The translations under genes and the position numbers were made by a program. A stretch of DNA of 64,000 bases from Blastococcus capsensis (GTDB lineage Bacteria > Actinomycetota > Actinomycetes > Mycobacteriales > Geodermatophilaceae). Below, one piece after another: positions 45,935 through 62,176 of the stretch (position 1 is the first letter of the stretch; each line of letters starts with the position of its first letter). The DNA is taken from contig NZ_JASNNW010000001.1 of the NCBI RefSeq assembly GCF_030165005.1, positions 310,001 to 374,000 of the forward strand, given 5' to 3'. Under the pieces are notes generated by a model. The model was not told the origin of the DNA and searched no databases. It was given only the letters and a program-made list of their open reading frames with translations.

Positions 45935-46088
45935 CAGGCATATCGGTGACGATCTCGGGTGCCCCTGGGCCAGCCGGGTGAGACGACATGGCAGCGGCCG
46001 CGGCCGCCGCGACGGCCGGATCGCGACGGGCACATGCGAACATCGACCAGCGGCGCCAGCCAGGCCCCCGCAGACCACGAGGAGACGC

Positions 46089-47676: not shown

Positions 47677-47698
47677 GAGCTTTATGGCGATAAAGCTC
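47677..47698. promoter_or_regulatory. 9-bp-arm palindrome upstream of pgm
   Basis: GAGCTTTAT and ATAAAGCTC, perfect 9-base arms with a GGCG centre, lie 64 bases before the pgm start. They are AT-rich against a very GC-rich background. This suggests an operator; a terminator for hsdM is a weaker alternative. Confidence 0.5.
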
Positions 47699-47761
47699 CG
47701 GCCTGGACGCCGGGAGGTGCAGATCTCGCGCGGATGCCGCCAGGGCGTCAAGATCAACGGC

Positions 47762-49396
47762 ATGAGCGACGCCCGCGCCGGACAGCCCGCCCAGCCCTCC
47801 GACCTCATCGACGTCGCCGCGCTGGTCACCGCGTACTACACCCGAGAGCCGGATCCGGCCGACCCGGCGCAGCAGGTCGCGTTCGGCACCAGCGGGCACC
47901 GTGGCTCGTCGTTCGACTCCGCCTTCAACGAGGCGCACATCCTGGCCACCACGCAGGCCATCTGCGAGTACCGGGCGGCGCAGGGGGTCGACGGGCCGCT
48001 GTTCCTGGGCCGCGACACCCACGCGCTCTCCGAGCCCGCGTGGTCCAGCGCCCTGGAGGTGCTGGCCGCCAACGACGTCCTCGTGCTCGTCGACGCCGCC
48101 GACCGCTACACCCCGACGCCGGCGGTCAGCCACGCGATCCTGCGGGCGAACGCCGGCCGCACCTCAGGCCTGGCCGACGGCATCGTCGTCACCCCGTCGC
48201 ACAACCCGCCCCGGGACGGCGGCTTCAAGTACAACCCGCCCAGCGGGGGCCCGGCTGACACCGATGCCACCGGCTGGATCGCCGACCGGGCCAACGAACT
48301 GCTGCGCGCGGGGCTCAGCGGCGTCCGGCGGGTGCCGCTCGACCAGGCCCGCTCGGGTGCGGAGACCTACGACTTCCTCGGCAGCTACGTCGACGACCTG
48401 CCCGAGGTGGTCGATCTCGAGGCGATCCGGCGGGCGGGCGTGCGGATCGGCGCCGATCCGCTCGGTGGGGCCAGCGTCGACTACTGGGCGGCCATCGCCG
48501 AGCGCCACGGCCTCGACCTGACCGTGGTGAACCCGCTGGTCGACCCCACCTGGCGGTTCATGACGCTGGACTGGGACGGCAAGATCCGGATGGACTGCTC
48601 CTCGCCGTCGGCGATGGCCTCGCTGGTCGACCGGCGGGCGGAGTTCCAGATCGCCACCGGCAACGATGCCGACGCCGACCGGCACGGCATCGTGACCCCC
48701 GACGGCGGGCTGATGAACCCCAACCACTTCCTGGCCGTCGCCATCGCCTACCTGCTCAGCCACCGTCCGGGCTGGGCCAAGGACACCGCCGTCGGCAAGA
48801 CGCTGGTGTCCAGCTCGCTCATCGACCGCGTGGTGGCCGACATGGGGCGCCGGCTGATCGAGGTGCCGGTCGGCTTCAAGTGGTTCGTGCCCGGTCTGCT
48901 CGACGGGTCGGTCGGGTTCGGCGGTGAGGAGTCGGCCGGGGCTTCTTTCCTGCGTCGCGACGGCAGCGTCTGGACGACGGACAAGGACGGCATCCTGCTG
49001 GCCCTGCTGGCGAGCGAGATCCAGGCGGTGACGGGCCGGTCCCCCTCGAAGCTGCACGATCAGCTCACCCAGCACTTCGGGAAGTCGGCCTACGCACGGA
49101 TCGACGCGCCGGCCACCCGCGAGCAGAAGGCGGCGCTGGCCAAGCTCTCCCCGGAGGACGTGACCGCCACGGAGCTGGCCGGCGAGCCGATCGTGGCCAA
49201 GCTGACGCGGGCACCGGGCAACGACGCCCCGATCGGCGGCCTCAAGGTGGTCACGGAGAACGCCTGGTTCGCCGCCCGGCCCTCCGGCACCGAGGACGTG
49301 TACAAGATCTACGCCGAGTCGTTCTCCGGCCCCGAGCACCTCGTCCAGGTGCAGCAGGAGGCGCAGGCCGTGGTCAGCGCCGCCCTGGGCGGCTGA
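47762..49396 (+). CDS. pgm: phosphoglucomutase (alpha-D-glucose phosphate-specific)
   Basis: Interconverts glucose 1-phosphate and glucose 6-phosphate. The 544-residue length equals the E. coli Pgm type. Motifs: FGTSGHRG near 40, catalytic phosphoserine in [22 protein letters not shown], metal loop [10 protein letters not shown] (near 300), substrate loop [10 protein letters not shown], and phosphate-binding [16 protein letters not shown]. Start at ATG 47762; a frame extending upstream to 47684 is unlikely. Supplies glucose 1-phosphate for glycogen, trehalose and cell-wall sugars. An M20 peptidase gene follows after one base. Confidence 0.97.
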
Positions 49397-49397
49397 G

Positions 49398-50486
49398 GTG
49401 GCCGCCGGGGACCTGGACCGGGTCGCGCCGCTGCGCGAGCTGGTCGGTCGGGTCACCGTCTCCGGGGACCCCGTGCCGCAGCGTGACGCCATGGGGCTCG
49501 TCACCGAGGTCGTGCGGGAGGGGGCACCGCACCTGGAGGCCACCACGGGCCCGGACCGCCGCCACCCGTGGACGCTGCTGAAGACGCCGACCGATCCTGC
49601 CCGTCCCCATCTCCTGCTGGCCTGTCACGTCGATACCGTCCCGGCGGCGGATCCCGGCAGCTGGCAGCGCGATCCCTTCGGGGCCGACCTCGACGAGGGC
49701 CGGATCTGGGGCCGCGGGACCAGCGACATGAAGGCCGGTGTCGTGGCGGCTGCCGCGGCCCTGGCCGCAGCGGACCCCGAGACGCCACTGGCACTCCTGT
49801 TGACCAGCGATGAGGAGACCGGCTCGCAGGGGGCGGCGGCCGCGGCGGCTGCTCTCGCCGGGCATCGCATCGGCGCGGTGGTGGTCCCCGAGGCGACCGG
49901 CAATCAGGTGCTTCTCGGCCACCGAGGAGCACTCTGGCTGGCGGTCCGGACCGTCGGGCAGGCAGCGCACGGCAGCACTCCCGAGCGCGGCCACAACGCC
50001 GTCCTCGACCTGGTGGCATTGCTCGGGCGCGTCCGGAGGGAGCTGCCGCTGCGCACGGATCCGTTCCTGGGCGGCGAGACGTGGAATCCCGGGGTCGTGG
50101 CCGGCGGAACCGTCCCGAACATCGTCCCCGACCGCGCGGAGGTTCTGGTGGACATGCGCACCGTGGGCGACGGGCGGCAATTGCTGGCGTGGTGGCGCGA
50201 CCAGCCGGAGGTCGCCGATGTCGAGGTGCACGTCGACCTGCCTCCGGTTCGCACCGCTGCCGACGACCCCTGGGTGTCCAGCCTGCCTGCGCCGGTGCTG
50301 GCGGATCCGGCCACCTACTTCACCGACGCATCCGTGCTCGCACCGGCGGTTTCCGGCGCGCCGATCGTGGTGTGGGGCCCTGGCACGCCAGCGGTCATGC
50401 ACGCCCGCGACGAGTACGTCGAGCTGGCCGAGCTGCACCGGGCGGCCGCGCTGTTCTCCGAGGTGGCCCGCCGCTGGCCCGGCTGA
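49398..50486 (+). CDS. M20-family peptidase, DapE/ArgE-like
   Basis: A 362-residue zinc amidohydrolase. Metal ligands: HVDTVP (near 75), RGTSDMKAG with the bridging Asp, catalytic TSDEETGSQG, ligand in VPEATGN, and a C-terminal His in VMHARDEYVEL. The lid domain contains AHGSTPERGHNAV. It is most like succinyl-diaminopimelate desuccinylase/acetylornithine deacetylase, but the first strands are shorter and true DapE activity is uncertain. GTG start, one base from the pgm stop, so cotranscribed with it. Confidence 0.85.
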   Translation: MAAGDLDRVAPLRELVGRVTVSGDPVPQRDAMGLVTEVVREGAPHLEATTGPDRRHPWTLLKTPTDPARPHLLLACHVDTVPAADPGSWQRDPFGADLDEGRIWGRGTSDMKAGVVAAAAALAAADPETPLALLLTSDEETGSQGAAAAAAALAGHRIGAVVVPEATGNQVLLGHRGALWLAVRTVGQAAHGSTPERGHNAVLDLVALLGRVRRELPLRTDPFLGGETWNPGVVAGGTVPNIVPDRAEVLVDMRTVGDGRQLLAWWRDQPEVADVEVHVDLPPVRTAADDPWVSSLPAPVLADPATYFTDASVLAPAVSGAPIVVWGPGTPAVMHARDEYVELAELHRAAALFSEVARRWPG

Positions 50487-50512
50487 ACTGCGCCGGCCGT
50501 GTGGCCCGGCCG

Positions 50513-51523
50513 TCAGTCGCCGCGGTCGGTGCTGGCGCGGACTACCAGCGATGGCGCCAGCGCGATCCGCTCGGGCGGGCCCGCACCCGGGCCGAGGGCT
50601 CGCTGCAGCAGCCGGACGGCTTCGGCGGCGATCTGCTCCTGGGGCTGGTGCACCGTGGTCAGCGGTGGTGCGGACAGGGCCGAGAAGGGGATGTCGTCGA
50701 ACCCGGTCACCAGGACGTCGTCGGGGACGCCGATCCCGCCCGCCGCGCAGCCTTCCAGGACGCCGAGCGCGATCAGGTCGTCGGCGCAGATGATGGCATC
50801 CGGCAGCGGCCCGTCAGCGAGGAGCTGGGCGGCGGCCTCCCGGCCCCACGCGATCGAGTAGTCACCCAGCAGGATCTGTCGTTCGTCGACGGCGATGCCC
50901 AGGCGTGTCGTGTGCCGCCGGAGCCCCGACAGGCGCAGTTCGGTCGAGGAGTTGGTGAGCCGGGAACTGACGAAGGCCGCCGTCCGGACGCCCCGCTGGG
51001 CCAGGTGGTCCGCAATCAGGCCGAGCGCCGCGTGGTCGTCCACTCCGACCCAGTGGCTGTCCACGCCGGTCACGTACCGGTCGACCTGCACGAGAGGTAG
51101 CTGGTCGGCGGCCCAGGCCACCGCCGCAGTGCTCTCCGTGCCGTGGACGGGGCTGATGACGATGCCGTCGACCTGTCGGGCGACCAGGGTGCGCAGCCGC
51201 TGCGCCTCCAGCCCTGGGTCCGAGCGGGAGGAGCACAGGAACAGCTGCTGGCCAGCCTGCTGCAGGGCGTGCTCGGCACTTTCCACCAGAGAGGTGAAGA
51301 ACGGGTTGGCGATGCTCGGGACCACCATGCCGACGGTGTCCGTACGGCTGCGGCGGAGCGCGCTGGCTATGCCGTTCCCCGCGTAGCCGAGCTCCTCCGC
51401 GGACCGGCGCACCTGCTCGACGACCTCCGCCGACACGGGACGGGCGCCGGACAGGGCCCGGGAGACCGTCGCCGTGGAGACACGGGCGTGTCGTGCGACG
51501 TCGCGGATGGTGACGCGGGACAC
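50513..51523 (-). CDS. LacI-family repressor of the BtpA-TenA operon
   Basis: A 336-residue regulator starting at GTG 51523 behind GGAGGAGGC. Helix-turn-helix and hinge: TIRDVARHARVSTATVSRALSG, RRSAEELGYAGNGIASALR. Periplasmic-binding-protein-like sensor: DTVGMVVPSIANPFFTSL, VDGIVISPVHG, GVDDHAALGLIADHL and VTGFDDIPFSALSAPPLTTV. It faces the eight-gene operon across 143 bases containing two GTAATCGATT-type LacI operators, so it most likely represses that operon and itself. The inducer is probably the imported compound or a breakdown product. Confidence 0.93.
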   Translation of the reverse strand: MSRVTIRDVARHARVSTATVSRALSGARPVSAEVVEQVRRSAEELGYAGNGIASALRRSRTDTVGMVVPSIANPFFTSLVESAEHALQQAGQQLFLCSSRSDPGLEAQRLRTLVARQVDGIVISPVHGTESTAAVAWAADQLPLVQVDRYVTGVDSHWVGVDDHAALGLIADHLAQRGVRTAAFVSSRLTNSSTELRLSGLRRHTTRLGIAVDERQILLGDYSIAWGREAAAQLLADGPLPDAIICADDLIALGVLEGCAAGGIGVPDDVLVTGFDDIPFSALSAPPLTTVHQPQEQIAAEAVRLLQRALGPGAGPPERIALAPSLVVRASTDRGD

Positions 51524-51585
51524 GAGCCTCCTCCGGCCGGCTGGAGTACTGCGCCCCTGGCCGGGCGTGCAGTCGCAACCGGAAT

Positions 51586-51597
51586 GTAATCGATTGC
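51586..51597. promoter_or_regulatory. LacI operator, distal
   Basis: GTAATCGATTGC, one arm degraded relative to the perfect site at 51642. Lies just upstream of the -35 box. Confidence 0.75.
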
Positions 51598-51599
51598 TC

Positions 51600-51630
51600 T
51601 TGACGTGTCCCGCGCCACACGCGCTAGGTT
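51600..51630 (+). promoter_or_regulatory. promoter of the BtpA-TenA operon
   Basis: TTGACG (51600-51605) and TAGGTT (51625-51630), 19-base spacer, placed between the two LacI operators; initiation would be around 51637. Confidence 0.6.
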
Positions 51631-51641
51631 CACTCACCTCG

Positions 51642-51653
51642 GTAATCGATTAC
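51642..51653. promoter_or_regulatory. LacI operator, proximal
   Basis: Perfect palindrome GTAATCGATTAC, 12 bases after the -10 box and just ahead of the ribosome site of the first gene. Repressor bound here would block transcription; a loop with the distal site 56 bases away is possible. Confidence 0.85.
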
Positions 51654-51666
51654 ATGGAGCCGCCGC

Positions 51667-52506
51667 GTGTCCCAGCCATTCGGGGTCTTCCCGTCCAAGC
51701 CGTCTGCCATGGGCAGCCTCTTCGGGGACGGCACGACCCTGATCGGTGCGGTCCACCTGCCGCCTCTCCCGGGCAGCCCGGCCTACCGCGGCCAGACGGT
51801 CGCGGAGCTGTGCCGCTTCGCCGTCGAGGAGGCGCGGGCCTACACCGGCAACGGCTTCGACTCCGTCATCGTCGAGAACCACGGGGACCTGCCCTTCCTC
51901 AAGCCGGGCGAGCACGGGTACGAGGTGGCCGCGACGATGGGCGTGGTCACCGCTGCGGTGGTCGCCGAACTCGGGCCCCGGGTGGGCGTGAGCGTGCTCT
52001 CGAACGCCGGCGAGTGCTCCGTGGCAGCCGCCTGGGCCGCCGGAGCGGGATGGGTCCGGGTCAACCAGTGGGCCAACGCCTACGTCGCCAACGAGGGGAT
52101 CATCGAGGGGCAGGCCGCCCGTACCACCCGGTACCGGCACGGAATCGGCGCAGATGACGTCAAGGTCTTCGCCGACGTGCACGTCAAGCACGGCGCCCAC
52201 GCGATCGTCGCTGACCGCACGCTGGCCGAGCAGACGGAGGACGCGGAGTTCTTCGACGCCGACGTGCTGATCGCCACCGGCTCGCGGACCGGCCACGCCA
52301 CGTCCGTGGCGGAGGTCATCGGGATCCGTGACCACACCCAGCTCCCGGTGATCATCGGGAGCGGGGTGGATCCGACCAACGTGGCCACGCTGCTCGCCGA
52401 GTGCGACGGCGCGATCGTCGCCTCGGCGGCGAAGGAGAACGGCCGCTGGTGGGGCCGCGTCGCACCCGAGAAGGTGCGCACCCTGGCGCGGGCGGCCGGG
52501 CGGTGA
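51667..52506 (+). CDS. BtpA/SgcQ-family TIM-barrel protein
   Basis: A 279-residue member of the BtpA/SgcQ family. Family blocks: LIGAVHLPPLPGSP near 30, GFDSVIVENHGDLPF, GVSVLSNAGECSVAAAWAAGAGWVRVNQW, VKVFADVHVKHGAHAI, DVLIATGSRTGHATS and PVIIGSGVDPTNV, the last typical of phosphate-binding barrel ends. BtpA was linked to photosystem I stability and SgcQ to a cryptic sugar operon; no catalytic activity is settled. First gene of the LacI-controlled operon; its TGA overlaps the kinase GTG, so the two are coupled. Confidence 0.92.
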   Translation: MSQPFGVFPSKPSAMGSLFGDGTTLIGAVHLPPLPGSPAYRGQTVAELCRFAVEEARAYTGNGFDSVIVENHGDLPFLKPGEHGYEVAATMGVVTAAVVAELGPRVGVSVLSNAGECSVAAAWAAGAGWVRVNQWANAYVANEGIIEGQAARTTRYRHGIGADDVKVFADVHVKHGAHAIVADRTLAEQTEDAEFFDADVLIATGSRTGHATSVAEVIGIRDHTQLPVIIGSGVDPTNVATLLAECDGAIVASAAKENGRWWGRVAPEKVRTLARAAGR

Positions 52507-53411
52507 TCGTCTTTTGCGGCTACGCCAACCTCGACGTCGTCGCGCGCGTTCCGGAGTTCCCCCGTCCGGACGAGCGCGTCCACGCGACCGGGATGGAGCA
52601 CCTGCCCGGCGGGATGGCCGCCAACGCCGCGGTGGCCGCCGCCCGAGCCGGCGCCGTCGTCGCATTCTCGGGGGCGGTCGGTGACGACGCGCTGTCGCGG
52701 CGGTTCCTGGAGCAGCTGGCCGACGAAGGTATCGACGTGACCTGGACCGACCGGTCCTCCTTCCTCTCGACCGCGGTGGTGCTGGTAGACGTCGAGGGCC
52801 GCCGGGCCGTCGTGAGCCAGGACGACGCACTCGGAACCGGCCACGTCCTGGCCACGGCGGAGCGGCTGGGCGCTGCGGGAGGCGGGCTCCTCTACCTCGA
52901 CGGCTACCGCGCCGCGCACGTGGGCGTGGCCGCACGTCCGGGGATCACCGTGGCGGTCGACCTCGACGGCTGCGAGGACCGCGATCAGGCTCTGGACGCC
53001 ATCGGGTCCGCGGGGCATGTCGTGATCGGCCGACGGAGGCTGGAGGAGCTGCTCGACGTCCCCCGTGACACGTGGGCCGGGCTGGCCGCGACGACGGGCA
53101 CCCACCTGCTCGTCACCGACGGCTCCCGCGGCTGGCTGCTGCACGAACCCGGCGGGGCCGTGGTCACCAGCCCCGCTCTGCCCGTCGCCGTGGTGGACGA
53201 CACCGGCGCGGGCGACTGCTTCACCGGCACCTATCTGGCCGGTATCGACGCCGGTCTCAGGCCCGCGCGAGCGGCCGCCCGCGCCGGGGTGGCGGCGAGC
53301 CTGTCCTGCAGCGTCCACGGCGCGCGGGGCGCTCCCGGACCGGCGGCCGTCGACACCGCTCTCGTGCGCGTCCCCACGACGGACCGGGAGGAGGTCCCGC
53401 GAACCGGATGA
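52503..53411 (+). CDS. PfkB-family carbohydrate/nucleoside kinase
   Basis: A 302-residue ribokinase-fold kinase from GTG 52503. Motifs: FCGYANLDVVARVPEFPRPDERVHA (first PfkB signature region), GGMAANAAVAAARAGA, and the catalytic VVDDTGAGDCFTGTYLAG with DTGAGD anion hole and base Asp. Substrate class (sugar or nucleoside) cannot be fixed from sequence. Placed between the BtpA-type barrel and an ABC importer, it probably phosphorylates the imported compound or a sugar released from it. Confidence 0.92.
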   Translation: MIVFCGYANLDVVARVPEFPRPDERVHATGMEHLPGGMAANAAVAAARAGAVVAFSGAVGDDALSRRFLEQLADEGIDVTWTDRSSFLSTAVVLVDVEGRRAVVSQDDALGTGHVLATAERLGAAGGGLLYLDGYRAAHVGVAARPGITVAVDLDGCEDRDQALDAIGSAGHVVIGRRRLEELLDVPRDTWAGLAATTGTHLLVTDGSRGWLLHEPGGAVVTSPALPVAVVDDTGAGDCFTGTYLAGIDAGLRPARAAARAGVAASLSCSVHGARGAPGPAAVDTALVRVPTTDREEVPRTG

Positions 53412-53528
53412 CAGGTACGGCACGGCACGAGACGCCCTCCCGCGGCGCCCGGCGCGCCACTGCCCCGAGCCACCCGACATGCGTCACCACGTAGGCCCCG
53501 CAACCGCACCGCCACCCCTGGAGGAACC

Positions 53529-54545
53529 ATGAGAAGGACCCTCGCCCTTGCCGCCGGCATCTCGATGCTGGCCTTGAGCGCCTGTGACAGCGCCTCCCCG
53601 GAGCCGGCGGACCCGGCGACGACGGAGGGAGACGCGGCCGCCACCAGCTCGCTGCCCGAACCGAGCATCCAGCCGGAGGGCTGCGAGAACGTCGACGAGT
53701 TCGAGATCGGGCTCGTGACCATCAACCTGCAAGCCCTCTTCTTCAACCAGATCAACGACGCGGCGCAGGCGATGGCCGACGAGTACGGCGTCGACCTGCA
53801 GATCATCAGCGGCAACGACGACTCCGTGACGCAGGCCAACGCCATCAACACCCTCGTGGCGGACGGAGCCGACGCGATCATCGTGGCCGCGGTCGACACC
53901 GAGGGCATCAAGCCCGCGATCCGAGCGGCCGACGAAGCGGGCATCCCCGTGGTCGCCGTCGACGCGATCGTGGACGATCCGGCGGTCGACGCCCAGGTCG
54001 GGACGGCGAACGCGGAGGGCGGCGCCCAGATCGGCGAGCTGCTGGTCGAGCAGGCGGGCGGGGAGGGCACCGTCGGCATCGTCGGCGCACTGAACAGCAC
54101 GATCCAGCTCGAGCGTCAGCGGGGCTTCGAGGAGGCTGTGACCGCCGCGGGGATGGAGATCGGCACCGTCGTCGACGGCCGCAACATCCAGGAGAACGCC
54201 CAGACCGCCGCGGAGAACCTGCTCACCGGCAACCCCGACCTGCAGTACGTGTACGCGACCGGTGAGCCGGCGCTGATCGGCCTGGCTGCCGCAGTGCGCA
54301 GCCAGAACGCGCAGGACCGGATCACCGTCGTCGGCTGGGACCTGGCCGAGCCCGTGGTGGAGGGGCTGGAGGCCGGCTGGATCGCCGGCGTCGTGCAGCA
54401 GAACACCTACGAGTTCGGCTACCAGGCGATGGCTGCGGCCATCGACGCGGCCTGCGGCAACCCGGTGCAGGAGGAGTACCCGGTGGACACGCAGATCGTG
54501 ACCCCCGAGAACTACGAGGACTACCTCTACTACCTGGAGGGCTGA
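53529..54545 (+). CDS. ABC importer substrate-binding lipoprotein (sugar type)
   Basis: A 338-residue lipoprotein with signal peptide and lipobox LALSAC (Cys20). The Peripla_BP_4 fold of ribose/galactose-binding proteins: IGLVTINLQALFFNQINDAA near 60, DAIIVAAVDTEGIKPAIRAADEAGIPVVAVDA (in parts: DTEGIKP, IPVVAVDA), GTVGIVGALNSTIQLERQRGF, and VVGWDLAEPVVEGLEAGWI. The ligand pocket cannot be read, but the fold is used for pentoses, hexoses and nucleosides. 117 bases separate it from the kinase gene; ATPase follows after 3 bases. Confidence 0.93.
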   Translation: MRRTLALAAGISMLALSACDSASPEPADPATTEGDAAATSSLPEPSIQPEGCENVDEFEIGLVTINLQALFFNQINDAAQAMADEYGVDLQIISGNDDSVTQANAINTLVADGADAIIVAAVDTEGIKPAIRAADEAGIPVVAVDAIVDDPAVDAQVGTANAEGGAQIGELLVEQAGGEGTVGIVGALNSTIQLERQRGFEEAVTAAGMEIGTVVDGRNIQENAQTAAENLLTGNPDLQYVYATGEPALIGLAAAVRSQNAQDRITVVGWDLAEPVVEGLEAGWIAGVVQQNTYEFGYQAMAAAIDAACGNPVQEEYPVDTQIVTPENYEDYLYYLEG

Positions 54546-54548
54546 GAC

Positions 54549-55319
54549 ATGGCTGGCGAGACCGAGGACCTCCTCGTCGAGCTCAAGGGCATCACCAAGT
54601 CCTACGGGCCGGTGCAGTCGCTCCGAGGCGTCGACCTGACCCTGCGTCGCGGGGAGGTTCTCGGCCTCGTCGGCGACAACGGTGCCGGCAAGTCCACGCT
54701 GATGAAGGTGCTGGCCGGGGCCGTGCAGCACGGGGGCGGGGAGATCCGTGTCCACGGCCGGCCGGTTCGCTTCGCCAACCCGGCGGACGCCCAGGCCGAG
54801 AAGATCGGCATCGTCTACCAGGACCTCGCGCTCTGCGACACGATCGACGTCGCCGGGAACCTCTTCCTCGGCCGGGAACCCCGCAAGGGCCCCTTCATCG
54901 ACCGTCGGACGATGCACGAGCAGGCCGCCCAGATCCTGTCAGACCTGCACGTCAAGGTGTCCTCCACGCACCAGGAGATCGGAACGCTCTCCGGGGGACA
55001 GCGGCAGACGGTGGCGATCGCCCGGGCGGTTTCCTTCAAGCCCGACGTGCTGATCCTCGACGAGCCCACGGCGGCCCTCGCGGTCGCCGAGGTGGAGTCG
55101 GTGCTGCGCCTCATCACGGACGTCGCTGCCCGAGGGGTCGGCGTCATCCTCATCACCCACCGTCTGCAGGACCTGTTCCGCGTCTGCGACCGGATCACCG
55201 TGATGTACGAGGGGCAGAGCGTGGACGACGTCCCGATCGACCAGCTCGACATCGAGAAGCTGGTCGCGCTCATCACCCGCTCGGAGCCGCAGAAGGCACA
55301 GAAGGAGGTGTCACCATGA
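54549..55319 (+). CDS. ABC importer ATP-binding protein (sugar type, single domain)
   Basis: A 256-residue ATPase with one nucleotide-binding domain: Walker A GLVGDNGAGKSTLMK, Q-loop YQDLALCD, signature LSGGQRQTVAIARAV, Walker B VLILDEPTAAL, H-loop ITHR. Ribose-type transporters often have a fused double ATPase; this is the single-domain form (FrcA-like), which acts as a homodimer. Overlaps the permease start by 4 bases. Confidence 0.95.
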   Translation: MAGETEDLLVELKGITKSYGPVQSLRGVDLTLRRGEVLGLVGDNGAGKSTLMKVLAGAVQHGGGEIRVHGRPVRFANPADAQAEKIGIVYQDLALCDTIDVAGNLFLGREPRKGPFIDRRTMHEQAAQILSDLHVKVSSTHQEIGTLSGGQRQTVAIARAVSFKPDVLILDEPTAALAVAEVESVLRLITDVAARGVGVILITHRLQDLFRVCDRITVMYEGQSVDDVPIDQLDIEKLVALITRSEPQKAQKEVSP

Positions 55320-56344
55320 CGGCGACCACCGCACCGGCGTCCACGGAGACCACCCGGCAGCTGGCCCGGCAGCAGTCCTGGTGGGAGCGGTCGAACAAGG
55401 CCACGATGGTCATGGCCGGCGTGACGGCGGCCGTGTGCGTCTTCTTCGCGCTGGCCTCCGACACCTTCCTGACGTTCGCCAACGTCTCGAACCTGGCGAC
55501 CCAGGTGGCCCCGGTCCTCATCGTCGCCGTGGCGATGACCTTCGTGATCACCGCGGGCCAGATCGACCTGTCCGTGGGGTCGATCATCGCGTTCGTCTCC
55601 GCCGTGAGCGCCCAGTTGCTGGCCGCCGGTTGGGACTCGTCGATCGTGCTGATCGCCGGCCTGGTCATGGGCGCCGGCTGGGGGATGGTCAACGGCTGGT
55701 TCACCGCCTATGCCGGCATCCCGGCGTTCATCGTCACCCTCGCGACCCTGTCGGTCATCCGGGGCATCGCCCTGCTCACCACGCAGGGCTTCTCGGTGCC
55801 GATCGACTTCGACACCTTCTTCGCCCAGCTCGGGTCGGCGCGGTGGCTCGGGCTCTCCAGCAGCGCCTGGATCGCCCTGGTCGTCGTCGTGCTGGGCCTG
55901 GTCGTCCTCCACCGGACGCCGTTCGGCCAGTACGTCATCGGCACCGGCGCGGCCGAGGAGTCGGTCCGGCGGGCCGGGGTGAACGTCCGTCGGGTGAAGT
56001 TGATGGCGCTGACGCTGTCCGGCCTCGCCGCCGGTATCGCCGGGATCCTGGTGGCCGCGCGGCTCGGTTCCGGGTCGGCCAACTCCGCCCAGGGCTTCGA
56101 GCTGACGGTCATCGCCGCCGTCGTCCTCGGCGGCACGAGCCTCTTCGGCGGCCGGGGCACGGTGGTGGGCACGCTCATCGGCGCCATCCTGATCACCGTC
56201 ATCGCCAACGGCCTGACGCTCGTCGGGGTCAGCCCGTTCCTGACGCCGATCATCACCGGCACCGTGCTCCTCGCGGTGATCTGGGTCAACCTCCGCGGCA
56301 AGGACATCGGTCAGGCGCTCCGCTCTCTGGTCGCCGGCAGATGA
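55316..56344 (+). CDS. ABC importer permease (RbsC type)
   Basis: A 342-residue inner-membrane permease with about nine helices. RbsC-like marks: AMTFVITAGQIDLSVGSIIAF, PAFIVTLATLSVIRGIALL, GTGAAEESVRRAGVNVRRVK (coupling-helix region, EESxRxxGxN), and AVVLGGTSLFGGRGTVVGTLIGA. Pairs with the adjacent ATPase and binding protein. ATGA overlaps on both sides (with the ATPase upstream and the hydrolase downstream) show tight translational coupling. Confidence 0.95.
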   Translation: MTATTAPASTETTRQLARQQSWWERSNKATMVMAGVTAAVCVFFALASDTFLTFANVSNLATQVAPVLIVAVAMTFVITAGQIDLSVGSIIAFVSAVSAQLLAAGWDSSIVLIAGLVMGAGWGMVNGWFTAYAGIPAFIVTLATLSVIRGIALLTTQGFSVPIDFDTFFAQLGSARWLGLSSSAWIALVVVVLGLVVLHRTPFGQYVIGTGAAEESVRRAGVNVRRVKLMALTLSGLAAGIAGILVAARLGSGSANSAQGFELTVIAAVVLGGTSLFGGRGTVVGTLIGAILITVIANGLTLVGVSPFLTPIITGTVLLAVIWVNLRGKDIGQALRSLVAGR

Positions 56345-57390
56345 GCGTCGTCCGGACGGTGCTGGGCGACGTGCTGTCGTCCGACCTCGGGGTGGTGCTG
56401 CCGCACGAGCACCTGGCGAACGACAACGGAGCTGCGTTCCGGCCGGCCGCCGACCCGTGGGTCGCCGCCCTGCTCGACCGACCCGTCAGCGCCGGGCTGG
56501 CGTGGGTGCTCGGCGACCATCCGTACGAATCACGGGACAACTGCCGCCTGGACGACGACGACGCCATGGCCGCCGATCTGCGTTCCTTCGCCGCGGCGGG
56601 GGGCCGGACGGTGGTCGATCTGACCCCGCCCGGCATCGGCCGGGCACCGGAGCGGCTCGTCGCGCTCTCCCGGGACACCGGGGTGCAGGTGGTGATGGGG
56701 TCGGGGTGGTATCTCGGCCACACCCACCCGGAGCACCTGGCCACCGCGACGGAGGAGGCGTTGACGGCCGAGCTCGTCGCCGAGTTCGATCCCTCCCGCG
56801 ACCTGCGGCCCGGCGTGATCGGGGAGATCGGCGTCTCGCCCTCGTTCACGGCTGAGGAGCGGAAGGCCCTGCGCGCGGCCTGCGCGGCGCAGCGGGTCGT
56901 CGGCGTGCCGCTGTTCATCCACCTCCCTGGCTGGCAGCGGCGGGCGCACGAGGTGCTCGACGTGGTGGTGGACGAGCAGGGCGTGGAGCCGGCGGCCGTG
57001 GTCCTCTGCCACCTGGACCCGTCCGGATCCGACCGCGGCTACCAGTCGTCGGTGGCCGACCGCGGGGTGTCGCTGGCGTTCGACATGATCGGGATGCCGT
57101 TCGACTTCCCCGGCGAGGGACTCTCCCCCGCCCCCGCGGAGTCCGCACGGGCGATCGCCGCCCTCGTGGCGGCCGGCCACGCCGGCCGGATCCTGCTCTC
57201 CCACGACCTCTTCCTGAAGGCCATGCTGACCCGCTTCGGCGGCAACGGGCTGGCCTACGTCCCCGTGGTGTTCGCCGACCGTCTGCGGCGGGTGGGTGTG
57301 CCGGCGAACCTCGTGACCGCACTGATGACCGACAACCCGCGACGGCTGTTCGAGGCCGCCGCGGCCACCTCTGCACCCGAAGGGCGCTGA
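56341..57390 (+). CDS. phosphotriesterase-family metal hydrolase
   Basis: A 349-residue amidohydrolase-superfamily barrel. Metal ligands: HxH in VLPHEHLAND (near 20), bridging carboxylate in VIGEIGVSPSF (Glu replaces the carboxylated Lys of classical enzymes), His in PLFIHLPGW and VLCHLDPSG, final Asp in ILLSHDLFLKAM. The Glu-bridged group includes sugar-lactonase-like and other non-phosphotriesterase hydrolases. In this operon a lactone, amide or ester intermediate is the likely substrate, which is inference. ATG overlaps the permease stop by 4 bases. Confidence 0.9.
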   Translation: MSVVRTVLGDVLSSDLGVVLPHEHLANDNGAAFRPAADPWVAALLDRPVSAGLAWVLGDHPYESRDNCRLDDDDAMAADLRSFAAAGGRTVVDLTPPGIGRAPERLVALSRDTGVQVVMGSGWYLGHTHPEHLATATEEALTAELVAEFDPSRDLRPGVIGEIGVSPSFTAEERKALRAACAAQRVVGVPLFIHLPGWQRRAHEVLDVVVDEQGVEPAAVVLCHLDPSGSDRGYQSSVADRGVSLAFDMIGMPFDFPGEGLSPAPAESARAIAALVAAGHAGRILLSHDLFLKAMLTRFGGNGLAYVPVVFADRLRRVGVPANLVTALMTDNPRRLFEAAAATSAPEGR

Positions 57391-57398
57391 ACTGTCCC

Positions 57399-58148
57399 AT
57401 GGCACGCATCCTCATCGCCGGCGAGAGCTGGATGACGACCTCTACCCACGTGAAGGGCGTCGACGAGTTCTCCGTGCACTCCTATGTGGAGGGGGTGGGC
57501 CCGCTGCGGGACGCGCTCACCGCCAGCGGTCACGAGGTCGTCCACCTGCCCGCTCACCTCGTGCCCACGGACTTCCCGGGCACCGCCGACGCCCTGTCCG
57601 CCTACGACCTCGTGGTGCTGTCCGACATCGGCGCGAATTCCATCCAGCTGGCCCCCGGGGTCTTCGAGCACTCCCGGCCGGGCCACGACCGGCTGGCGGC
57701 ACTGCGGGACTGGGTCGAGAGCGGCGGCGCTCTGCTGATGATCGGGGGCTACCTGTCCTTCAGCGGCTTTCAAGCGCGAGCCGCCTTCCGGCAGACGCCG
57801 ATCGCCGATGTCCTGCCCGTTCTCATGCTGTCCGAGGACGACCGCGTGGAGTGCCCGGCCGGCGTCCGTCCCGCTGTGGTCGATGCCGAGCATCCGGTCG
57901 TCCATGGCACGGGCAGCGACTGGCCCCTGCTGCTCGGTTACAACCGGGTGGTCGCCAAGGAGACGGCGCAGGTGCCCGTCCGGGTCGGCGCGGATCCCCT
58001 CGTCGCCGTCGCCGACTACGGGCGTGGTCGCGCGGGTGCCTTCACCTCGGACTGCTCGCCGCACTGGGCCCCGCCGGCCTTCTGCGAGGAATGGCCCGGC
58101 TACGGGCAGCTGTTCGACGGACTCGTGCGCTGGTTGGTCGGGCGGTGA
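57399..58148 (+). CDS. glutamine-amidotransferase-fold protein (PF07090-like)
   Basis: A 249-residue cytoplasmic protein that resembles the putative glutamine amidotransferase family related to ThuA/GATase1 folds: RILIAGESWMTTSTHVKGVDEF at the N-terminus, YDLVVLSDIGANSIQL, GGALLMIGGYLSFSGF (elbow position lacks Cys), and AFTSDCSPHWAPPAFCEEWPGY near the end. Without a nucleophilic Cys at the elbow, amidotransferase activity is unlikely; a binding or isomerase-like role is possible. 8 bases after the hydrolase; overlaps the TenA-like gene by 4 bases. Confidence 0.8.
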   Translation: MARILIAGESWMTTSTHVKGVDEFSVHSYVEGVGPLRDALTASGHEVVHLPAHLVPTDFPGTADALSAYDLVVLSDIGANSIQLAPGVFEHSRPGHDRLAALRDWVESGGALLMIGGYLSFSGFQARAAFRQTPIADVLPVLMLSEDDRVECPAGVRPAVVDAEHPVVHGTGSDWPLLLGYNRVVAKETAQVPVRVGADPLVAVADYGRGRAGAFTSDCSPHWAPPAFCEEWPGYGQLFDGLVRWLVGR

Positions 58149-58804
58149 TCCCCGGCGAGGGGAGGGCAGCGGCCCTCGTGGCCCGGCAGGCCGGTGCGCT
58201 CGACGATGCCTGCGGCTGCCGATTCGTCCGTGCCGCCGTCGACGGCACCCTCTCCGACGACGACTTCGCTCGGTACCTCTTCATCGAGGAATCCTTCGTG
58301 CTGACCGCAGCACGTGTTCTCGGGCGGGTGGTGTGGGAGTCGACCACCTGGGAGACGCTCCTCCCGAACGCTCGGTCACTCACCAATCTCGTCACCGACC
58401 AGCGGTCCTACTTCGGTTCCCTGCGTGGTCGGTGGCCGGTGTCCGGGACGGAGGTGGCCGAGACGGCGGCGCGTGCAGCAGTGCTCTCCGACGTCGTTCT
58501 GGCCCAGGTGCGCGACGGCGGCCGGCCGGCCGCGGTCACCGGGATGCTCGCCGCGGAGACGATGTACGCCCGGTGGTGCACGGCCGCCGCTGCCGCGCCG
58601 CCGGCCGCCCGGTCACGGAGGCAGCCCGACCTGCAGGCATGGATCGACCTGCACACGCAGCAGGATTTCCTCGACCAGGTGAAGGCGCTGGAGGCCGACG
58701 TCGACCGGTTGGGCGAGGACGAGGCGGACGACGGTGACCTCGACCGTTGGTTCGCCGGGGTGCTCGAGGCCGAGATCGCATTCCACGACGCCGTCCGTCC
58801 CTGA
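58145..58804 (+). CDS. TenA/PqqC-like protein (TenA_E type)
   Basis: A 219-residue helical-bundle protein of the TenA/THI-4/PqqC superfamily: FVRAAVDGTLSDDDFARYLFIEESFV near the N-terminus (key residues D, Y, E), LAAETMYARWC in the active-site helix, and EAEIAFHDAV at the end keeping the catalytic Glu (ExxF). The Cys of classical TenA (LPC-F/W) is replaced by Ala, placing it with the TenA_E group. TenA proteins hydrolyse aminopyrimidine parts of damaged thiamine or, in the E group, related amines. Last gene of the operon; no riboswitch controls it. Confidence 0.82.
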   Translation: MIPGEGRAAALVARQAGALDDACGCRFVRAAVDGTLSDDDFARYLFIEESFVLTAARVLGRVVWESTTWETLLPNARSLTNLVTDQRSYFGSLRGRWPVSGTEVAETAARAAVLSDVVLAQVRDGGRPAAVTGMLAAETMYARWCTAAAAAPPAARSRRQPDLQAWIDLHTQQDFLDQVKALEADVDRLGEDEADDGDLDRWFAGVLEAEIAFHDAVRP

Positions 58805-58955
58805 GTCCGGCGAACGCGGGCTTCCGGCCACGTGCGGTCATCCGTCGCTCGCACGAGCAGCTCCTGGCCGGCTCCCCACCGCCCTTCGCGCGGGGTCGCC
58901 GCTATCGGCGGATGACCATGCGGGTCGGACGCCGGATCGCGGGTAGGGCGAGAGG

Positions 58956-60617
58956 ATGTTCGACCCGGCCGTCAGCGACCAGTGGTGGAAGAACGCCGTC
59001 GTCTACTCCGTGGACGTCGAGACGTTCATGGACTCCGACGGCGACGGGATCGGCGACTTCCGGGGTCTGACCCATCGCCTGCCCTACCTGTCCGGCCTGG
59101 GCGTGACCTGCCTGTGGTTGCTGCCCTTCTACCCGACTCCGGGACGGGACGACGGCTACGACGTGAGCGACTACTACACCGTGGACCCCCGGCTGGGCAC
59201 GCTGGGCGAGTTCGTCGAGTTCGTCCGCACCGCGCGGGACCTCGGGATCCGGGTGGTGATCGACCTCGTGGTGAACCACACCTCCAGCGAGCACCCCTGG
59301 TTCCAGGAGGCCCGCCGCGACCGCAACTCCCGGTACCGCGACTGGTACGTGTGGGCCGACCAGCCGCCGGAGGACGAGGCCAAGGTCATCTTCCCGGACG
59401 AGGAGGACAGCAACTGGGCCTGGGACGAGGAGGCCGGGCAGTTCTACCTGCACCGCTTCTACTCGTCGGAGCCCGACCTCAACACCGCCAACCCCGACGT
59501 CCGCGACGAGATCCACCGGATCATGGGTTTCTGGCTCGAGCTCGGGGTCTCCGGGTTCCGGGTGGACGCCGCGCCGTACCTCATCGGGGACGCCGGGATC
59601 GAGAACCAGATGCCGCAGGACCCGCACCTGATCCTGCAGGACATGCGCGGCTTCCTCTCCCGTCGCCGCGGGGACGCCGTGCTGTTCGGCGAGGTCAACC
59701 TGGACCCCGGGGACCGCGAGACCTTCTTCGGTGACGACGGCGACGAGATGACCGGGCTGTTCAACTTCATCCTGTCCGGCGCGGTGTTCACCGCCCTCGC
59801 CCGCGGCGAGGCGGCCCCCCTGGCCGAGCACCTCCGGCGGACGCCGCCGCCGCCGCGGACCTCCCAGTGGCTGAACTTCCTGCGCAACCACGACGAGCTG
59901 AACCTCTCTCGGCTGCCGACCGAGGAGAAGGAGGAGGTGATGGCCGCCTTCGCCCCGGAGCAGGACATGCGGATCTACGGCCGCGGCATCCGGCGGCGGC
60001 TGCCCCCGATGGTCGGCGGCGACCGCAGGCGGATCGAGCTGGCGTTCAGCCTGCTCCTGACCCTGCCCGGGACCCCGGTGCTCCTCTACGGCGAGGAGAT
60101 CGGGATGGGCGACGACCTGGCGATCGAGGGGCGCAAGAGCGTCCGCACGGTCATGCAGTGGACCGATGGGCGCAACGGCGGCTTCTCCGGTGCCGACGAG
60201 CTCGTGGCCCCCGTCGTCGACGACGGCCCGTTCCGCTACCAGGAGGTCAACGTCGCCGAGCAGCGCCGGCGCGAGGACTCCCTGCTCAACCGGGTGGAGC
60301 GCGCGATCCGCGTCCGCAAGGAGTCCCCCGAGTTCGGCTGGGGCACCTGGACGGTGCTGGACTCCGGCGACCCGCGGATCCTCGCCCACCGGTGCGACTG
60401 GCTGGACGGCACGGTGCTCGCCGTGCACAACCTGTCCGGCGACGACGTCGAGACCCGGATCGACCTGGCCGACGGCAACCGACTCGAGGAGGTCAGCGAC
60501 ATCTTCGGCGGCGACCGCTACGAGCCGCTCGACCCGGACGATCCTCGCGTCTCCCTCGCGCCCTACGGCTATCGGTGGCTGCGCGCGAGGCCCGCGGGCA
60601 GCGGGACGGCGCTGTGA
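58956..60617 (+). CDS. GH13 alpha-amylase-family enzyme, trehalose synthase-like
   Basis: A 553-residue cytoplasmic glycoside hydrolase/transglycosidase. Start region WWKNAVVYSVDVETFMDSDGDGIGDF (key: calcium-type DSDGDGIGDF). Conserved regions: DLVVNHTSSEHPWF (I), GFRVDAAPYL with the nucleophile Asp (II), LFGEVNLDPGD with the acid Glu (III), LRNHDELNL (IV). The pattern is close to TreS-like maltose-trehalose isomerases, but without the usual maltokinase partner; exact reaction unproven. 150 bases upstream are non-coding. Followed by a coupled alpha-glucosidase gene. Confidence 0.88.
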   Translation: MFDPAVSDQWWKNAVVYSVDVETFMDSDGDGIGDFRGLTHRLPYLSGLGVTCLWLLPFYPTPGRDDGYDVSDYYTVDPRLGTLGEFVEFVRTARDLGIRVVIDLVVNHTSSEHPWFQEARRDRNSRYRDWYVWADQPPEDEAKVIFPDEEDSNWAWDEEAGQFYLHRFYSSEPDLNTANPDVRDEIHRIMGFWLELGVSGFRVDAAPYLIGDAGIENQMPQDPHLILQDMRGFLSRRRGDAVLFGEVNLDPGDRETFFGDDGDEMTGLFNFILSGAVFTALARGEAAPLAEHLRRTPPPPRTSQWLNFLRNHDELNLSRLPTEEKEEVMAAFAPEQDMRIYGRGIRRRLPPMVGGDRRRIELAFSLLLTLPGTPVLLYGEEIGMGDDLAIEGRKSVRTVMQWTDGRNGGFSGADELVAPVVDDGPFRYQEVNVAEQRRREDSLLNRVERAIRVRKESPEFGWGTWTVLDSGDPRILAHRCDWLDGTVLAVHNLSGDDVETRIDLADGNRLEEVSDIFGGDRYEPLDPDDPRVSLAPYGYRWLRARPAGSGTAL

Positions 60618-62176
60618 CCGGCGGGCCGGCCCCCGGCGCGCCGTGGTGGCGCAGCGGCGTGGTCTACCAGATCTACCCCCGGTCCTTCGCCGACTCCTCC
60701 GGCGACGGGATCGGGGACCTGGAGGGGATCCGGGCCCGGCTGGACCACCTGAGCTGGCTCGGCGTCGACGCGCTGTGGCTCTCGCCGGTCTACCGCTCGC
60801 CCATGGCCGACGCGGGGTACGACATCGCGGACCACTGCGACATCGATCCCCTGTTCGGCGACCTCGCGGCCTTCGACCGGCTCCTGGCCGACGTCCACGA
60901 CCGGGGCATGCGGCTGATGCTGGACTGGGTGCCCAACCACACCAGCGACCAGCACCCGTGGTTCCTCGACTCCCGCAGCTCCCGCGACTCTGCCCGCCGC
61001 AACTGGTACCTGTGGCGGGACGGCGAGCCGGGCACGCCGCCGAACAACTGGCTGGCGCAGTTCACCGGCGGCCCTGCCTGGACCTGGGACGAGGACACCA
61101 CGCAGTGGTACCTGCACCTGTTCCTCCCCGAGCAACCCGATCTCAACTGGGCCGATCCCGCCGTGCAGGAGGCGATGCACGACGTCCTCCGGTTCTGGCT
61201 GCGGCGCGGCGTGGACGGTTTCCGCGCGGACGTCGTCCACCTGATCGGCAAGGACCCGGAGCTGCCCGACCACCCCCCGGAGCTCGTCGGCACCAACGTC
61301 GTGCACAGCCACGACCTGCCGGCGACCCACGGCCTGCTGCGCGGGATCCGGGCGGTGCTCGACGAGTTCCCCGGGGACCGCGCCATGGTCGGTGAGGTCA
61401 ATCTGCGTTCGCCCGCCCTGATCGCCCCCTACTACGGCGCGGGCGACGAGCTGCACCTGGCCTTCAACTTCGTCCCGCTGTCCGGCCCCTGGGAGGCGTC
61501 CTTCTGGCGCTCGGTGGTCGAGGAGACCCTCGCGGCGCTGGAGCCCGGCGGTTCCTGGCCGACCTGGGTGCTGTCCAACCACGACAACCCGCGCCACCGC
61601 ACCCGCTACGGCGGGTCGGAGGCACGGGCGCGGGCGGCCGCCGTCCTGCTGCTGACCCTGCCGGGCACGCCGTTCCTCTACGCGGGCGAGGAACTGGGGC
61701 TCGAGGACGCCGTCGTCCCGCCGGACCGGCGGGTCGACCCCGGGGGCCGCGACGGGTGCCGGGCACCGATCCCCTGGACGGCGGACGACGGCCACGGCTG
61801 GCCGCCGGAGCCCTGGCTGCCCTTCGCCCCGGACGCCGGCGCGCGCAGCGCCGCCGCACAGCGGGCGGACCCGACCTCGGTCCTGCACCTCTACCGGCGG
61901 CTCCTGGCCGCCCGGCGCCGCTCGCCCGCCCTCTCCACGGGTGCCTGGAGGGCCGTGCCGGCTCCCGACGGGGTGCTGGCCTACGAGCGGCAGGCCGGCG
62001 CCGACCGACGGGTCGTCGCGGTGAACTTCACCGATGCGCCGGCCCGGTTCCCGCTGGACGAGCCCGCGGCCGTGGAGGTCTCGTCGACCTGTAGCACCGA
62101 GGGTGCTGCCTGGGCCGGTGCCCTGGGGCCCGACGCGGCCGTCCTGCTCGCCCCGGCGGGGACGCCCACCGGATGA
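60614..62176 (+). CDS. GH13 alpha-glucosidase
   Basis: A 520-residue enzyme starting at GTG 60614, overlapping the previous stop by 4 bases. Motifs: VVYQIYPRSFADSSGDGIGDLEG, MLDWVPNHTSDQHPWF (I), VDGFRADVVHL with nucleophile Asp (II), MVGEVNLRSP with acid Glu (III), VLSNHDNPRH (IV), and LYAGEELGLEDA. These fit exo-acting alpha-glucosidases/oligo-1,6-glucosidases. With the preceding TreS-like enzyme it probably handles maltose, trehalose or isomalto-oligosaccharides in the cytoplasm. Confidence 0.93.
   Translation: MTGGPAPGAPWWRSGVVYQIYPRSFADSSGDGIGDLEGIRARLDHLSWLGVDALWLSPVYRSPMADAGYDIADHCDIDPLFGDLAAFDRLLADVHDRGMRLMLDWVPNHTSDQHPWFLDSRSSRDSARRNWYLWRDGEPGTPPNNWLAQFTGGPAWTWDEDTTQWYLHLFLPEQPDLNWADPAVQEAMHDVLRFWLRRGVDGFRADVVHLIGKDPELPDHPPELVGTNVVHSHDLPATHGLLRGIRAVLDEFPGDRAMVGEVNLRSPALIAPYYGAGDELHLAFNFVPLSGPWEASFWRSVVEETLAALEPGGSWPTWVLSNHDNPRHRTRYGGSEARARAAAVLLLTLPGTPFLYAGEELGLEDAVVPPDRRVDPGGRDGCRAPIPWTADDGHGWPPEPWLPFAPDAGARSAAAQRADPTSVLHLYRRLLAARRRSPALSTGAWRAVPAPDGVLAYERQAGADRRVVAVNFTDAPARFPLDEPAAVEVSSTCSTEGAAWAGALGPDAAVLLAPAGTPTG

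Follow-up and report, generated by a model that had tools for sequence, protein, structure and literature searches.

An eight-gene operon of Blastococcus capsensis belongs to a conserved gene set and may serve catabolism of a nucleoside-like compound

We analysed a 64,000-nucleotide stretch of the Blastococcus capsensis genome (contig NZ_JASNNW010000001.1, positions 310,001 to 374,000), called the window below, in which eight co-directional genes at 51667-58804 stand with a divergent LacI-family repressor gene alongside. They encode a BtpA/SgcQ-family barrel protein (BtpA), a PfkB-family kinase, a substrate-binding protein (SBP), an ABC ATPase, a permease, a PTE-family metal hydrolase, a GATase1_like protein and a TenA_E-type protein (TenA). 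We find that these genes are conserved together. The reading that we favour, and to which we give an even chance of being right, is that LacI represses an operon for the catabolism of a compound made up of ribose and a part with amide or ureide bonds, most likely a modified or damaged nucleoside.

Conservation of the gene set

Relatives of the operon were collected through its GATase1_like protein. An alignment scan of one genome per species (84,980 species) gave 549 candidates, from which the best 80 loci were kept, and all locus counts given here describe these best 80 of the 549. Gene counts rest on tblastn: core loci are those in which SBP, PTE and GATase1_like each reach at least 40% identity, with BtpA counted at 40% or above and nucleoside hydrolase at 33% or above. 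We observe 52 core loci among the 80; L126 and L144 stand outside this count because their contigs end inside the operon, and some of the loci L043-L061 duplicate genomes counted elsewhere, their PTE rows being identical.

It had been set beforehand to ask whether BtpA, PTE and TenA are conserved together, and they are: 31 of the 39 core loci that carry BtpA keep the strict order LacI-BtpA-PfkB-SBP-ABC-permease-PTE-GATase1_like-TenA unbroken. Such loci occur in Klenkia, Modestobacter, Geodermatophilus, Rhodococcus erythropolis, Prauserella, Actinomadura and Streptomyces, among others, and because the order recurs across so many genera it is more than chance. The other eight comprise seven alphaproteobacterial loci, which are rearranged, and one without TenA. 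In these seven, all rhizobial, the order is SBP-ABC-permease-PTE-GATase1_like-PfkB-BtpA, with a HyuC-type M20 gene in four and TenA in none. Loci reached independently through BtpA have their genes arranged in the same way, as far as the length of the contig allows this to be seen. An M20 deacylase gene beyond lacI, absent from the list in the preliminary description of this DNA, is counted into the set because a homologue adjoins LacI in 26 of the 32 actinobacterial core loci of the BtpA type.

The operon is rare among close relatives. Within the genus BtpA occurs in none of 10 congeners and a strong TenA match in 1 of 22, and within the order 14 of 249 genomes (B. capsensis included) carry BtpA at 68% identity or more. 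On plasmids, which were hand-picked from match lists and for which the PLSDB gene tables are incomplete, the set occurs in Rhodobacterales, Rhizobiales and Pantoea, with TenA, with HyuC-type M20 or, in Neorhizobium, with both. The idea that TenA and HyuC-type M20 exclude each other was rejected, as Neorhizobium L170 has both and three Mesorhizobium core loci have neither. Of the set, a Roseomonas locus (L067) has GATase1_like, BtpA and PfkB alone, and its ABC importer is a different one. No relative of GATase1_like was found on viral contigs, and PHROGs gave no match for BtpA, GATase1_like or TenA.

Exchange of BtpA for a nucleoside hydrolase

The 52 core loci divide into 39 with BtpA, six with a nucleoside hydrolase and seven with neither; none has both. 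The six nucleoside hydrolase loci (L116, L118, L122, L131, L132, L135) lack TenA as well as BtpA and come from Coriobacteriia and other actinobacterial assemblies, Microbispora and Sphaerimonospora. In all six the hydrolase is followed by a PfkB kinase with the motif GGKGANQ. The two hydrolases that were scanned match PF01156 at 328 and 340 bits; the L116 enzyme, the only one scanned at the subfamily level, is nearest to UriH and RihA and under both cut-offs. The background rate of nucleoside hydrolase genes is low (20 matches in ~81 Mb, or ~0.005 expected per 20-kb locus), and in five of the six genomes the operon's gene is the only one found. BtpA was not found in the six genomes, several of which are metagenome assemblies and possibly incomplete.

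Among the core loci with neither gene, L070, L074 and L076 are cut by a contig end and the other four are from Frigoribacterium, where no BtpA was found in any of the four genomes and a nucleoside hydrolase lies elsewhere in three. B. capsensis itself has one nucleoside hydrolase gene, ~151 kb from BtpA. A distant BtpA (25-30% identity) occurs in L058, L059, L060 and L128, the last two also with a nucleoside hydrolase; being under the 40% threshold, these were not counted as BtpA. In a tree of PTE sequences (76 rows, 70 different) the seven nucleoside hydrolase rows, from the six core loci and L126, form one clade, which groups with the alphaproteobacterial and Pantoea BtpA rows at full support. 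The single clade argues for one exchange and not several.

Other contexts of GATase1_like and BtpA

Among the 28 non-core loci, a nucleoside hydrolase occurs in eleven, a purine nucleoside phosphorylase in three and a Bmp-type importer protein in 13; the eleven include L126, a core-type locus cut by its own contig. All three phosphorylase loci are from Streptomyces and each has a TRZ/ATZ-type amidohydrolase as well. Of these, L139 was scanned: its phosphorylase exceeds the DeoD cut-off and its amidohydrolase falls short of its own. Loci L119, L130 and L147 combine ATPases like those of energy-coupling factor (ECF) importers with an amidohydrolase and two M20 genes, and lack both a nucleosidase and a Bmp protein. 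L130 also has CbiQ, and its S component is under the cut-off; the amidohydrolases of L119 and L130, the two scanned, give weak dihydroorotase/hydantoinase matches, all under cut-off. Two ureidoglycolate-lyase-like proteins over the Pfam cut-off occur in L111, a creatininase in the nucleoside hydrolase locus L128, and an M20 enzyme over the HyuC/allantoate-amidohydrolase subfamily cut-off in L064. It is because such cyclic amide and ureide hydrolases recur in some relatives that we propose an amide- or ureide-bearing base.

On a Rhodococcus aetherivorans plasmid (L155), a GATase1_like-LacI-PfkB run adjoins genes for ribose-phosphate pyrophosphokinase, nicotinate phosphoribosyltransferase and a flavin-dependent oxidoreductase, and perhaps degrades a ring compound as its riboside. 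BtpA also has contexts of its own. A Sagittula stellata E-37 plasmid (L167) carries a PfkB-BtpA-BtpA-TenA run, with no GATase1_like, PTE or matching SBP in that stretch, which adjoins allE and an M20 gene (36% to HyuC-type) across a divergent GntR gene. A second context, in which BtpA precedes two small proteins of ~240 and 105 amino acids, is seen at 7992-9066 of L167 and 9849-10867 of L173; the Sagittula pair had no Pfam match. In Mycobacterium L163 (8388-9140) a distant BtpA (27%) follows a kinase in an apparent sugar-kinase/sugar-ABC run.

Protein families and the proposed pathway

Membership of the operon protein in the BtpA/SgcQ family is clear from PF03437 (203.4 bits, cut-off 30) and TIGR00259 (185 bits, cut-off 153.4); the model for photosystem I biogenesis BtpA, NF045918, gives 153.1 bits, under its 400-bit cut-off. 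An AlphaFold model (pLDDT 82.8, pTM 0.86) predicts a ribulose-phosphate-binding-barrel fold of the HisF/ThiE-like kind. Foldseek places HisF, MJ1099 with phosphoribosyl pyrophosphate, indole-3-glycerol phosphate synthase (TrpC), phosphoribosylanthranilate (PRA) isomerase (TrpF) and TenI at the top, at 12-18% identity and with TM-scores of the top rows of 0.5-0.6 by query length. VIA-align gives Z 20.2 to MJ1099 (rmsd 2.7, 212 aligned), 18.7 to ThiE (2.8, 191) and about 18 to HisF, hexulose-phosphate synthase and KDPGal aldolase. The Gly-rich segments IIGSGV and IVASAAK presumably sit where phosphate-binding barrels hold phosphate.

The kinase has GGMAANAAV in place of the ribokinase motif GGKGANQ. 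Across loci the form GGMxANA is seen in actinobacterial BtpA loci and GGKGANQ in most alphaproteobacterial ones, so that a candidate rule confining GGKGANQ to nucleoside hydrolase loci was rejected. The SBP, whose N-terminus reads as resembling a lipoprotein signal, has as its closest solved relative 5HSG (226 bits), which we take to be a Klebsiella protein, and matches RbsB at 94 bits.

The Glu-bridged PTE of the preliminary description is borne out: its metal ligands (HxH, Glu bridge, H, H, D) are invariant in all 76 aligned rows, 70 of them different. It scores 55.8 bits with the organophosphate hydrolase model NF041153, under the cut-off of 500, and its closest solved relative is PDB 3K2G (299 bits), which is probably, as we take it, Rsp3690. 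Metal-stimulated esterase activity is reported for Rsp3690 and Pmi1525 (PMC5341072). The TenA_E assignment also stood, as profile alignments place E138 at the Cys of 2RD3, keep E210 and show Glu at the TenA Asp position; Glu for Cys plus a second Glu is what we take to define TenA_E. The label "amidotransferase" for GATase1_like proved misleading. In 24 aligned sequences no Cys position is invariant or close to it, and the protein is thus not an amidotransferase of the usual kind. Its model (pLDDT 94.4) is nearest to STM3548 (Z 36.6), STM1381 (34.7) and 3RHT (29.0), with ThuA-like structures at 18.9 or below, and the ThuA-like and GH42-domain matches of fold searches gave no helpful function. 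The M20 deacylase scores 156.2 bits with NCBIfam TIGR01910, under the 217.6 cut-off, and has DapE/ArgE proteins as best PDB matches. No PsuG-family match (pseudouridine catabolism) was listed for the ten scanned proteins, the rest of the genome not having been searched.

From these families we propose the following pathway. The RbsB-like SBP and the half-size CUT2 importer would take up a riboside, which, or a product of which, would release LacI from both operators. BtpA, as a phosphate-binding barrel, would separate sugar from base, probably once PfkB has phosphorylated the riboside; it is the phosphate-binding barrel that suggests this kinase-first order. Alternatively, BtpA may cleave the free riboside, with PfkB then yielding ribose 5-phosphate. 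The base itself could be attacked at its amide, ester or amine groups by the hydrolases PTE, M20 and TenA_E (or HyuC-type M20), and GATase1_like would contribute a step of its own, of a kind that we leave unspecified. The course of events that the preliminary description put forward, in which a nucleoside-like conjugate is imported, phosphorylated, cleaved by the barrel protein and then hydrolysed, is thereby partly supported, by the joint conservation of the genes, the nucleoside hydrolase exchange and the phosphate-binding-barrel model. The evidence speaks neither for nor against C-glycoside or amino-sugar substrates.

Evidence against and alternative explanations

Several observations weigh against this reading. 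GATase1_like is present in all 80 loci by construction, since they were fetched with it, and BtpA occurs without it in stretches L057, L163, L167 and L173. The exchange of BtpA and nucleoside hydrolase needs just one event on the PTE tree, and one plasmid locus (L063) holds both genes in adjacent operons. Half of the non-core loci (14 of 28, with L121, L124 and L144 short or cut) show neither a nucleosidase nor a Bmp protein. In Mycobacterium L136 there is an importer protein of the NMT1/THI5 type and neither a kinase nor a nucleosidase match, and on an E. coli plasmid (L159) GATase1_like stands with an APC permease and a proline-iminopeptidase-like hydrolase. For BtpA, a shared barrel fold shows no reaction, and loops 136-146 and 173-182, where many of the best-conserved positions lie, have a model pLDDT below 50. 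Nor does the PfkB motif show the kinase-first order, because it tracks lineage. On the L159 plasmid, which also carries blaTEM-1, the PfkB-GATase1_like-hydrolase-APC permease segment is flanked by two IS26 copies.

One further such observation leads to an alternative that we consider unlikely, namely degradation of glycated amines (an Amadori ribulosamine or fructosamine), in which PfkB would phosphorylate, BtpA act as a deglycase (compare FrlD and FrlB) and the hydrolases trim the amino acid part. On the Agrobacterium plasmid pTiA47a (L162), GATase1_like adjoins genes for fructoselysine 6-kinase, a SIS-domain protein and oxoprolinase, and in other loci M20, proline-iminopeptidase-like hydrolases and an APC permease accompany it; the BtpA model also resembles PRA isomerase and PriA, which are Amadori isomerases. 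However, the Ti-plasmid protein is a distant family member (36%), and the nucleoside hydrolases, purine nucleoside phosphorylase and Bmp importers of related loci argue against a glycated amine. The L162 gene lies between trb genes and the hydantoinase/oxoprolinase-SIS-fructoselysine kinase cluster, which probably serves opine catabolism.

Rather improbable, in our judgement, is that the operon serves the uptake of plain ribose or another pentose, its additional hydrolases acting on pentosides joined through ester or amide bonds. The SBP is RbsB-like, and its phmmer alignment with RbsB keeps FF, D89, R141, D215 and Q235, but N13, R90 and N190 are altered (ligand residues and numbering are assumed here). 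The operon kinase is far under the ribokinase cut-off (111.8 bits with TIGR02152, cut-off 299.65), and plain ribose uptake leaves BtpA and TenA unexplained. The Salmonella kinase RikA is a ribokinase in vitro, although its authors allow that the ribose activity may be off-target (PMC13432705).

Salvage of thiamine pyrimidines, with TenA_E and HyuC-type M20 as a TenA/YlmB pair acting on, for example, N-formyl-aminomethyl-pyrimidine, is very improbable: the TenA_E residues are present and TenA, HyuC-type M20 or both occur in many alphaproteobacterial loci, but the lack of a thiamine pyrophosphate (TPP) riboswitch or any other Rfam match at 48000-61000 and of a thiamine biosynthesis model over cut-off among the ten scanned proteins disfavours it, the set includes a sugar-kinase-family protein, and TenA is missing where the nucleoside hydrolase occurs. 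In addition, a TenA_E is reported for Sagittula stellata E-37, yet the strain failed to grow with the formylated pyrimidine (PMC10470507). If that reported TenA_E is the TenA beside BtpA in L167, the gene set would explain the lack of growth.

Nucleoside-like catabolism can also be given a wider form, which we hold to be rather unlikely: a widespread, undescribed scavenging of ureide-type nucleosides, in which BtpA would be a new class of enzyme cleaving phosphorylated ribosides, TenA_E and HyuC-type M20 would act on the nucleoside-derived base, not on fragments of thiamine, and GATase1_like would be the signature enzyme. By ureide-type nucleosides we mean ribosides whose base is an oxidised or ring-opened purine or resembles hydantoin.

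Operon layout and regulation

Family searches and our reading of the sequence bore out the operon as first described, with all eight genes, their families and their coordinates (Table 1). The number of 4-base overlaps, given before as five, was corrected to four: BtpA/PfkB (52503-52506), ABC/permease (55316-55319), permease/PTE (56341-56344) and GATase1_like/TenA (58145-58148). The gaps are 3 bases between SBP and ABC, 8 between PTE and GATase1_like and 117 between PfkB and SBP.

Table 1. Coordinates of the operon, its regulatory elements and the adjoining deacylase gene, in window positions.
Feature	Position	Strand	Remarks
M20 deacylase gene, ArgE/DapE-like	49398..50486	+	convergent with lacI
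LacI-family repressor gene	50513..51523	-	PF00356 and PF13377 over cut-off
Operator 1, GTAATCGATTGC	51586..51597		palindrome with 1 mismatch
Weak promoter-like hexamers, TTGACG-19-TAGGTT	51600..51630	+	between the operators; TTGACG at 51600, TAGGTT at 51625, spacer of 19 bases; own sequence reading
Operator 2, GTAATCGATTAC	51642..51653		exact palindrome
BtpA/SgcQ-family barrel gene	51667..52506	+	PF03437, TIGR00259
PfkB-family kinase gene	52503..53411	+	GTG start overlaps BtpA stop; PF00294 118.6 bits
SBP gene, RbsB-like	53529..54545	+	family searches
ABC ATPase gene, single-domain, CUT2 type	54549..55319	+	256 amino acids; family searches
Permease gene, CUT2 type	55316..56344	+	PF02653
PTE-family metal hydrolase gene	56341..57390	+	PF02126; HxH, Glu bridge, H, H, D
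GATase1_like protein gene	57399..58148	+	PF07090, 302.6 bits
TenA_E-type protein gene	58145..58804	+	PF03070 31.7 bits; Glu138 at the Cys position, Glu210

The two predicted LacI operators are present as operator-like palindromes. With up to 2 mismatches the operator pattern occurs four times in the window (0.11 expected), the other two matches, at 9654 and 17750, having 2 mismatches each. Genome-wide, the two LacI operators are the only exact sites of the pattern used in the search, and one-mismatch sites lie on contigs 11, 35 and 49. A LacI protein 47-92% identical adjoins the operon in 55 loci. When loci with LacI of at least 45% identity were examined, twin operator sites (2 mismatches or fewer) were seen upstream of LacI in 48 of the 55, a single site in six and none in one, several genomes occurring twice among the 55. 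The claim of one promoter flanked by the operators is supported in part: weak hexamers do lie between them, but a strict sigma-70 scan found no promoter. A terminator scan was likewise empty.

Beyond lacI, an open frame at 47684-49396 (+) reads as a phosphoglucomutase from its translation, and its stop falls one base before the start of the M20 gene; given this spacing the two may be co-transcribed. Upstream of it, a frame at 45426-47591 (+) reads as an HsdM-like N6-adenine DNA methyltransferase. On the other side a GH13 gene at 58956-60617 (+) scores 586 bits with the trehalose synthase N-terminal model (cut-off 678) and is followed by a second GH13 match; a GH13 gene also stands beside the operon in G252, and in none of the other same-family loci compared.

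Relation to known systems

We know of no established reaction for SgcQ or for the BtpA/SgcQ and GATase1_like families, which occur in many bacteria. The operon BtpA belongs to the same family (TIGR00259) as SgcQ of the E. coli sgc locus, a phosphotransferase system (PTS) sugar locus that is not known to include PTE, TenA or GATase1_like. The nearest parallel in RihA/UriH-type nucleoside catabolism is with L116-type loci, in which homologous SBP, PTE and GATase1_like accompany a nucleoside hydrolase and a kinase with GGKGANQ; instead of the latter two, the operon has BtpA, a divergent kinase and TenA. With YlmB/TenA salvage of thiamine pyrimidines it shares the TenA_E residues and, in some alphaproteobacterial versions, a HyuC-family M20, but it has PTE, GATase1_like, BtpA and a sugar kinase, and neither thiamine genes nor a TPP riboswitch were found.

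The earlier statement that no pathway with exactly this set is known holds for open PubMed Central papers, in which we found no description of the BtpA-TenA version. A PfkB/GATase1_like/PTE cluster has, however, been published for Salmonella: rikA-STM3548-STM3549-STM3550, also present in other Enterobacterales, was described in 2026 as of unknown function and as perhaps a route for using some unknown source of carbon, with genes for a PfkB kinase (RikA, with ribokinase activity), GATase1_like, a DMT transporter and PTE (PMC13432705). The operon likewise joins PfkB, GATase1_like and PTE, and its GATase1_like protein resembles the STM3548 structure at the Z score given above; it differs in having an ABC importer and not a DMT transporter, and the available text of that paper names no BtpA or TenA. 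A Streptomyces plasmid (L156) with M20-LacI-GATase1_like-DMT-PTE shows an arrangement intermediate between the two. The Salmonella rikA cluster is thereby placed in a larger family of gene sets. A TenA_E gene by itself need not signal thiamine salvage, and the exchange with nucleoside hydrolase gives the orphan BtpA family a concrete, testable hypothesis.

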